From contig JASHPD010000364.1 in assembly GCA_030038315.1 (NCBI GenBank), forward strand, positions 1 through 35,497: a stretch of DNA of 35,497 nucleotides, in the 5' to 3' direction. The notes beneath the pieces were generated by a model that did no database searches, was not told the DNA's origin, and saw only the letters and a list, made by a program, of their open reading frames with translations. This document shows, in pieces, positions 8,889-15,363 of this stretch (within the stretch, counting starts at the first letter, position 1; every line of letters starts with the position of its first letter). The translations under genes and the position numbers were made by a program. This stretch comes from Acidobacteriaceae bacterium (GTDB taxonomy: Bacteria; Acidobacteriota; Terriglobia; Terriglobales; Acidobacteriaceae).

Positions 8889-8934
8889 AGCCGGGTGCCG
8901 GCTACACCGTTCATCGAGCGTCGTTTGCTCGATG
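8889..8934. repeat. Two consecutive short hairpins in intergenic DNA
   Basis: AGCCGG-GTG-CCGGCT (8889-8903) and CATCGAGC-(7 nt)-GCTCGATG (8912-8934). Confidence 0.7.
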
Positions 8935-8970
8935 GGTGGTATAGCACAAAAGCCCGTTATTCCGCAGCCA

Positions 8971-8994
8971 AGCTAATAGCCAAAAGCTAATAGC
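8971..8994. repeat. Direct repeat AGCTAATAGC x2 at the pepA 3' end
   Basis: AGCTAATAGC at 8971-8980 and 8985-8994; the second copy overlaps the pepA stop codon. Confidence 0.75.
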
Positions 8995-10489
8995 TTCTGA
9001 CCCACTCCAATATCGACCGGACTGCTACGCCGCTGGGGCCTTTGGCGATCCAGGGCTTGTTTTCGTCGATCCAGGCGAGGGCGGCGATATCGAGGTGAAT
9101 CCACGGCGTGTCTTCGGCGAATACTTTCAGGAATTCAGCCGCGGTGATGGAGCCGCCGTAGCGGCCGCCGGTGTTTTTGATGTCGGCGATGTCGGACTTG
9201 ATCATCTCGGCGTATTCGTCGCTTAACGGGAGACGCCAGAATTTTTCGCCGCTGGTGGTGAGGGCGGTGTTGAATTTCTCGAAGGTTGCATCGTCGTTCG
9301 AAAAGGCTCCGGCGTTGATCTGGCCCAATGCGACGGCGACGGCTCCGGTGAGTGTGGCGGCATCGATGAGGTGAGTTGCGCCGAGTTGCTTGGCGTAGGC
9401 CAGGCCATCAGCCAACACTAAGCGGCCTTCGGCGTCGGTGTTGATGATCTCGATGGTCTTGCCGGACATGGCCGTTTGCACGTCACCGGGTTTCTGGGCT
9501 TTGCCGTCGGGCATGTTTTCCGTGGCGCAGACGATGCAGACTACGCGCACCCTGGGCTTGAGCAGTGCGATTGCGCGCATGGCTCCGAGCATGGCTGCGC
9601 CGCCGGCCATGTCGTATTTCATCTTTTCCATGTTGTCGGCGGGCTTGATGGAGATGCCGCCGGTGTCGAAGGTGATGCCTTTGCCGACCAGGCCCAAAAT
9701 CGGGCCGTCGGTTACGCCTTCGGGCTCATAGCGCAGGACGATGAGCGCAGGCGGCTCGGCGGAGCCTTGCGCGACGCTCAGGAATGCGCCCATCTTCAGC
9801 TCGCGCAGCTTGTCGGTGGAGTAGACGTCCCACTGGAGGCCGGTTTCCTCGGCCATGGTTGCCGCGCGCTTGCCGAATTCGGTGGGCGTGAGAACGTTCC
9901 CCGGCTCGTTGACCAGCGCGCGGGTGAAGTTCTGGCTCTCGCCTACGATGGTGCCTTCGGCGAAGGCGGCTTCGATGGCAGGTTTTTCGCTTGCGGCTGG
10001 CGCGACGGCGGTGAAGGATTGGACGCTCTGGTCTTTGCGGTCGGTGCGGTAGGTATCGGAGTCGAAGTCGCCGACGAATGCGCCTTCGGCGGCGGCGCGT
10101 GCCCCTGCGTGGAGCGGAATTTCGGAGTCGGGGAGTGCAAAGACCAGCGCGCGGATTCCGCGCGGCTTGGTGTAGCGGACTGCCGTTCCGGCGGCGGTGC
10201 GGACGCTGTTTGCGGTTGCTTTTGCCTGCTTGCCGAGGCCGACGAGCAGGAGGCGTTTCGCGGTCAGCCCCGCCGGCGCGTGGATCAGCACTGTTTCATT
10301 TGCACCGGCCTTGAATTCGCCGCTTTCAAGCACGGTTTTCGCTGCGCTTTGAACGGCTTCGTCGCTGGTCAGCAGCGTGGGTGCAGGCTTGGCATCTGGG
10401 CCTTTGGCGGTCTGCGTGTCTACGGCGAGGACGGCCAGAAGTTCAGTTTCAAGGGATTGCAAGGGGGCAAAGGAAAGTTCAGTCCGCAT
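8987..10489 (-). CDS. pepA: Cytosol (leucyl) aminopeptidase, M17 family
   Basis: 'LVGKGITFDTGGISIKPADNMEKMKYDMAGGAAMLGAM' and the 'NTDAEGRLVLADGLAYA' M17 signature. Confidence 0.96.
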   Translation of the reverse strand: MRTELSFAPLQSLETELLAVLAVDTQTAKGPDAKPAPTLLTSDEAVQSAAKTVLESGEFKAGANETVLIHAPAGLTAKRLLLVGLGKQAKATANSVRTAAGTAVRYTKPRGIRALVFALPDSEIPLHAGARAAAEGAFVGDFDSDTYRTDRKDQSVQSFTAVAPAASEKPAIEAAFAEGTIVGESQNFTRALVNEPGNVLTPTEFGKRAATMAEETGLQWDVYSTDKLRELKMGAFLSVAQGSAEPPALIVLRYEPEGVTDGPILGLVGKGITFDTGGISIKPADNMEKMKYDMAGGAAMLGAMRAIALLKPRVRVVCIVCATENMPDGKAQKPGDVQTAMSGKTIEIINTDAEGRLVLADGLAYAKQLGATHLIDAATLTGAVAVALGQINAGAFSNDDATFEKFNTALTTSGEKFWRLPLSDEYAEMIKSDIADIKNTGGRYGGSITAAEFLKVFAEDTPWIHLDIAALAWIDENKPWIAKGPSGVAVRSILEWVRSY

Positions 10490-10510: not shown

Positions 10511-10556
10511 GCGTTTGTTATCCCACGTCTCCAAAACCGGGAGACATGGGGCACCC
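10511..10556 (-). repeat. Intergenic stem-loop repeat family B, copy 1
   Basis: Minus strand GGGTGCCCCAT-GTCTCC-CGGTTTT-GGAGAC-GTGGGATAACAAACGC; shares its outer sequence with 15301-15363. Confidence 0.7.
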
Positions 10557-10574: not shown

Positions 10575-11048
10575 CTAGTTCCCGTTGCGGCGTTTGCTGG
10601 AGTTGATGGCGGCGCGGGCTTCGCGGTCGGCCTCGCGGCGCTTTTCGGTTTCGCGCTTGTCCCAGTCCTGCTTGCCTTTGGCTACGGCGAGCTCGCATTT
10701 GACCCGGCCGTGGCGGAAATAAAGCCGGGTGGGGATGAGCGTGTGGCCCTTGATCTGCGTCTTTGACTGTAGCTTGCGAACCTCTTCGCGGTGCAGCAGC
10801 AGTTTCCTGGTGCGGGTCTCGTCGTGGTTGGAGAGGTTCCCGTGCGAATAAGGGCCGATATGCAGATTGAGCAGAAACGCCTCGTTGTCTTTGATGAGCC
10901 CGTAGGCGTCCTTGAGGTTGGCTTTGCCTTCGCGGATGGACTTGACCTCGGTTCCGCGCAGGGCCAGGCCGGCTTCCACCTTATCGAGAAGAAAATAGTT
11001 ATGGCTGGCGGCGCGGTTCTGCGCGGCGTCGCGCTCGCCTGCGGCCAC
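10575..11048 (-). CDS. smpB: SsrA-binding protein SmpB
   Basis: 'NRAASHNYFLLDKVEAGLALRGTEVKSIREGKANLKDAYGLI..', 'KGHTLIPTRLYFRHGRVKCELAVAKGKQDWDKRETEKRREADRE'. GTG start at 11048 gives 157 aa; the start is uncertain. Confidence 0.93.
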   Translation of the reverse strand: MAAGERDAAQNRAASHNYFLLDKVEAGLALRGTEVKSIREGKANLKDAYGLIKDNEAFLLNLHIGPYSHGNLSNHDETRTRKLLLHREEVRKLQSKTQIKGHTLIPTRLYFRHGRVKCELAVAKGKQDWDKRETEKRREADREARAAINSSKRRNGN

Positions 11049-15300: not shown

Positions 15301-15363
15301 CGCGATTGTTTTGCGATCCCACCCTTGGCACAAAAACAAAAACGCGCCAAGGATAGGGCACCC
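15301..15363 (-). repeat. Intergenic stem-loop repeat family B, copy 2
   Basis: Minus strand GGGTGCCCTAT-CCTTGGC-GCGTTTTTGTTTTTGT-GCCAAGG-GTGGGATCGCAAAACAATCGCG. Confidence 0.7.

Follow-up and report, generated by a model that had tools for sequence, protein, structure and literature searches.

A GTGC-tagged, REP-type hairpin in the smpB-pepA gap of an Acidobacteriaceae bacterium and its probable spread by a RAYT clade

The gap between smpB and pepA in an Acidobacteriaceae bacterium (assembly GCA_030038315.1, contig JASHPD010000364.1; the 35,497 nucleotides analysed are referred to as the window) contains a short hairpin that is very probably a non-autonomous copy of a repetitive extragenic palindrome (REP), spread in the Acidobacteriaceae by REP-associated tyrosine transposases (RAYTs) of one clade, whose genes are flanked on each side by such hairpins. 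The hairpin belongs to a family with a conserved paired structure. Members of this family flank the RAYT genes of the clade, their arms are inherited together with the RAYTs, and relatives have no copy at the smpB-pepA site.

The hairpin in this gap, copy 1, occupies 10520..10556 on the minus strand and consists of a GGGTGC tag, the hairpin and a terminal AT. The minus strand reads 5'-GGGTGC-[CCCAT GTCTCC CGGTTTT GGAGAC GTGGG]-ATAACAA, and the conserved unit (10520-10556) reads ATCCCAC-GTCTCC-AAAACCG-GGAGAC-ATGGGGCACCC on the plus strand. The tag (10551..10556, minus strand; core GTGC) is unpaired and lies directly 5' of the foot stem, outside it. Judged by sequence, pairing and fold, the hairpin proper (10522..10550, minus strand) is composed of a foot stem (CCCA/TGGG), a T-G wobble, a head stem (GTCTCC/GGAGAC) and a 7-nt loop (CGGTTTT). 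When folded as single-stranded DNA, the tagged strand gave -10.4 kcal/mol with a z-score of -3.1. In addition, the outer frame is itself paired through the CCCA/TGGG foot stem, and the stem is thus longer than the six bases bracketed in the initial annotation. The upstream neighbour is smpB (10575..11048, minus strand; identified by its translation, with orthologues in 57 of 59 genomes from the genus) and the downstream neighbour is pepA (8987..10489, minus strand), a leucyl aminopeptidase gene identified by its translation, named from sequence resemblance and with orthologues beside smpB.

Copy 2 (15316..15363, minus strand) lies in the lon-engB gap, where Pfam assigned the neighbours to lon and an EngB-type GTPase; it has the frame of copy 1 with CC-type arms and a longer head that includes a long loop. 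This common frame with different arms was already described in the initial annotation, and a covariance model recovered both copies. A degenerate third copy (8890..8952, plus strand), oppositely oriented, was found in the gap 3' of pepA. The model scored copies 1, 2 and 3 at 51.6, 61.4 and 30.8 bits, with E-values, which are rough, of 4e-11, 1e-13 and 6e-6, respectively.

Further copies, on which the initial annotation had made its reading depend, were abundant. The frame pattern ATCCCACN{8,38}GGGCACCC, which allows any 8-38 nt between its two fixed parts, matched 73 times in the own genome, while the reversed-pattern control gave 0 matches; the covariance model found at least 138 copies there, a lower bound from 150 scored candidates. 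Only 5 of the 73 frame copies were inside called ORFs, and the family is therefore dispersed, high in copy number and mostly intergenic, as REPs are; it also has the foldable palindrome of ~20-40 nt of a REP. Genes were called with a home-made caller, whose calls in the window agreed with Pfam wherever a family matched. The heads sort into length classes and arm classes. Across 28 aligned copies, 92% of the pair cells were paired, compared to 71% after shuffling and at most 47% with slid partners, and 64 cells were altered on both sides, compared to 20 after shuffling. These results bear out the earlier claim that the arms differ and yet stay paired. Furthermore, 56 G-T wobbles were on the tagged strand and 4 on the other; this concentration suggests that the tagged strand is the structured one, as supporting evidence only, since 45 of the 56 represent one inherited position.

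Pairing of this kind, with covariation and with wobbles that favour one strand, would also be produced by a functional RNA hairpin in transcripts (an attenuator, terminator or 3'-end stabiliser) whose arms evolve by compensation. In tandem gaps the tagged strand was the sense strand in 21 cases vs 9, and 3' gene ends were weakly preferred (60 vs 42, p=0.09), both of which are in line with such an RNA. However, 18 copies were in convergent and 12 in divergent gaps, and both tandem orientations were present. The earlier statement that the copies share one orientation relative to transcription thus describes copies 1 and 2 and does not extend to the genome. At copy 1, the stem is followed by ATAACAA rather than by the T-run of an intrinsic terminator, no terminator-like site was called at 10511-10556, and the window had no Rfam match above the gathering threshold. 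Given the mixed gap orientations, the weak 3' preference and the lack of a terminator-like site, the family is ill-suited to be an obligatory RNA signal; nor does an RNA hairpin predict the association with RAYTs or sites that are not conserved in relatives, both described below. We therefore consider this explanation improbable; on the evidence, the copies are better read as dispersed REP hairpins of single-stranded DNA than as RNA elements, though a secondary RNA use may occur at some sites.

Copy orientation was also seen to track local GC skew. The untagged strand was G-rich at 58 of 71 own copies, at 19 of 19 copies in G005, a relative, and at 85 of 103 copies gathered across many genera; this bias is perhaps partly compositional, as a G-rich control word was similarly biased. 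No link between copy orientation and dnaA-defined replichores was found in two complete genomes (G079 and G002).

The frame is widespread in same-genus genomes, and about 127 of 136 Acidobacteriaceae genomes in a family sample matched, compared to 1 of ~14 genomes, marginally, from other families of the order. Named matches were nearly all from Acidobacteriaceae or other Acidobacteria (Granulicella, Edaphobacter, Terracidiphilus, Silvibacterium, Acidicapsa and Terriglobus); one Atribacteria match in the collection scan (L183) was dismissed as chance, its arms being unpaired. The sites themselves are not shared. The smpB-pepA gap held no copy in relatives with pepA after smpB, seven of these gaps being just 40-114 bp, and a model search of orthologous regions in relatives returned 0 copies at either the smpB-pepA or the lon-engB gap. 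A conserved smpB/pepA cis-element was ruled out by the empty site. Downstream of pepA, the gap does hold copies in G005, G018 and G008, with other heads and in the orientation opposite to that of the window's copy; because of these differences, the copies there and in the window are likely independent arrivals. Between 20 G005 copies and 73 own copies, 0 sites were common, and the two closest candidate pairs, when inspected, differed in position.

The same data bear on whether the outer frame is a duplex site read by a regulator or nucleoid protein, with the hairpin incidental. The frame is nearly invariant in the pattern matches, although this is imposed by the search pattern; arm pairing far above chance is not needed by a duplex site, copies lie at different sites in different species, and the flanking of RAYT genes would be left unexplained. 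Such a protein-binding site is therefore extremely unlikely.

Two other features of these gaps were observed. In several relatives (L133, L134, L137, L140, L154 and L155) the smpB-pepA gap extends over 0.8-1.2 kb and, judged by eye, seems to contain small genes encoded on the other strand, perhaps an AbrB/PIN-type toxin-antitoxin pair. A second type of intergenic repeat, in which TTAGC/AGCTAAAAGCT words are frequent, lies beside an IS200-like TnpA gene (L031:440-480 and 1050-1230), 3' of pepA in both the window and G005, and in several gaps in the genus.

A clade of RAYTs was found, at E up to 1e-20, in 47 of the 59 genomes sampled from the genus. These proteins scored above the cut-off of NF047646, the NCBI REP-associated tyrosine transposase family, their sole PDB match was 4er8 (E. 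coli TnpA-REP), and the HVH, WQ and Y motifs were conserved; with the HUH motif, the catalytic Tyr and the family score, they belong to the RAYT/TnpA-REP group. The RAYT loci were drawn in part from hairpin-rich genomes and for the remainder were the best matches of an alignment search. In 45 clade-RAYT loci, a few of which were fetched and counted twice, we found 115 tagged hairpins, and 41 of the 45 were positive. In contrast, controls gave 0 tagged hairpins in 19 loci of other RAYTs and 0 in 29 smpB loci. After de-duplication, 22 of 40 RAYTs were tagged on both flanks with the feet outward, 13 on one side and 5 on neither. Inverted hairpin pairs around the RAYT gene, a REP feature, are thus present in relatives and not in the own genome.

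The hairpins and the RAYTs share their descent. On the two flanks of one RAYT, the arms agreed at 6.27 of 7 positions, compared to 3.43 after shuffling (p=5e-5). On the RAYT tree, the arm type (GTC vs CC) changed 2 times, whereas shuffling gave 10.6 changes on average and never fewer than 6; the two bases preceding GTGC changed 3 times, compared to 8.8 after shuffling. In the own genome, 51 of 68 heads matched a RAYT-locus hairpin at >=85%, whereas a random-arm control reached at most 81%, and the long-loop CC class has close counterparts at the L401 RAYT, including an A-G mismatch and the loop. The hairpin shape is thus kept while the arm letters differ because the matching transposase gene bears the same hairpins at both ends. 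Since copies 1 and 2 of the window carry one each of the two arm types, which follow the RAYT tree, the 'compensatory' change of their arms is mainly subfamily structure. The proposal of selection on structure is therefore supported for pairing, by covariation and wobbles, and is unsupported for compensation at a functional intergenic site, given RAYT-linked subfamilies, an empty site and mixed orientation.

Alternatively, the hairpins could have spread by another route, either by an IS200-type TnpA acting in trans or by replication slippage and gene conversion, with the RAYTs merely among the copies. Copies coexist with an IS200-like TnpA in the own genome, where no clade RAYT was detected, and the tandem arrays in G008, with a period of 80-106 bp, would fit as well. 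However, hairpins are rare at IS200-like loci (2 tagged hairpins in 24 loci), and neither the matching of flank arms per RAYT nor their agreement with the RAYT tree fits this route, which we regard as very unlikely. The Y1_Tnp of the own genome (L031) was rejected as a source; it is IS200-like and has no adjacent hairpin.

Tandem arrays of the same hairpins, with a period of 80-106 bp and up to 11 units, were observed at L384, L385 and L382 in G008 and at L185 in AB60, and they mix GTCTCC and CCTAGGCG heads within near-identical spacers. The nearest kin of the copy 1 head are the arrays in G008; among RAYT-locus hairpins its best match was 83%, little over the control maximum. In the G008 array at pepA (L382), adjacent units share spacer and feet, while their heads, of the GTCTCC and CCTAGGCG types, are unrelated and each perfectly paired. 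It is conceivable, if unlikely, that the RAYT reads just the foot tag and the stem shape, and that whole heads are exchangeable cassettes between conserved feet. If true, the apparent covariation would be head replacement and not stepwise compensation.

Spread by the RAYT clade, the reading we prefer, also has observations against it: no clade RAYT was detected in the window's own draft genome (92% complete) or, at E<=1e-20, in G079 (a single contig, 100% complete), despite 60 covariance-model copies in the latter; the copy 1 head is matched at the level given above; the 5 distinct RAYTs lack tagged flanks; and insertion polymorphism among close strains, target-site duplications and exact boundaries were not observed. 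Orphan REPs that remain after RAYT loss have been reported (PMC3686654). The G079 copies form an orphan population, and those of the own genome are probably orphans after RAYT loss, unless the RAYT gene is missing from the draft.

By analogy with other RAYTs (PMC8266576, PMC6006769), the HUH/Y1 enzyme would recognise the folded tagged strand by its foot tag and paired stem and would cut beside it. The tagged strand would then be passed on as single-stranded DNA to new, mostly intergenic sites. The arms would merely have to pair and could diversify along with the RAYT lineage. Strand-specific recognition of single-stranded DNA has been demonstrated for RAYTs of E. coli and others (PMC8266576).

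The kind of element is already known from REPs and RAYTs. As in the GTAG/GTGG REPs and their RAYTs (REPtrons), the repeat is a short, intergenic, high-copy hairpin with a 5' tag, the RAYT gene is bracketed by inverted copies, and hairpins and RAYT diversified together. Unlike in REPtrons, there are several unrelated stem types per genome, and the tag next to the stem departs from the canonical GT[A/G]G: the window copies have GTGC, and hairpins at clade-RAYT loci carried GTGC in 147 and GTGG in 12 of 159 cases. On the strict tag the window copies fail as canonical REPs, while their way of working would, by analogy, fit. On the 3' side, some hairpins have GCAC/CCAC, which is similar to the 'double foot' described for subclass 2.4 (PMC6006769). 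Class 3 TnpA-Y1 repeats are likewise high-copy hairpins near Y1 genes in Acidobacteria, with ~600 in Solibacter (PMC6006769), but they have a CnGA foot and a Y....Q signature, whereas we found GTGC and YxxxNPV RAYTs. Mosaic tandem arrays of different heads, as in G008 and L185, recall BIME arrays, from which they differ in the 80-106 bp units and the GTGC tag. Di Nocera 2013 (PMC3733652) describes, as TIRYTs/TIRtrons, RAYT-like genes with flanking inverted repeats in Terriglobus, Granulicella, Acidobacterium and Koribacter; the Koribacter TIRs form a dispersed family, and TIRs are reported there as unrelated to GTAG REPs, some with GGGGWSAS in common. GGGGCACC does not fit GGGGWSAS; the TIRs may be the same family. 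In the literature searched, we found no description of a GTGC-tagged, family-wide Acidobacteriaceae repeat.

Where the arms of intergenic hairpins covary in bacteria, the cause can be the subfamily structure of a mobile repeat, and covariation is not necessarily a sign of RNA. One family of soil bacteria here offers a natural set of many REP heads, along with ~40 RAYTs to match and a guide tag shifted to GTGC. This set could test whether RAYTs read hairpin shape or sequence, how the tag evolves together with the cleavage site, and whether REPs persist without their RAYT.
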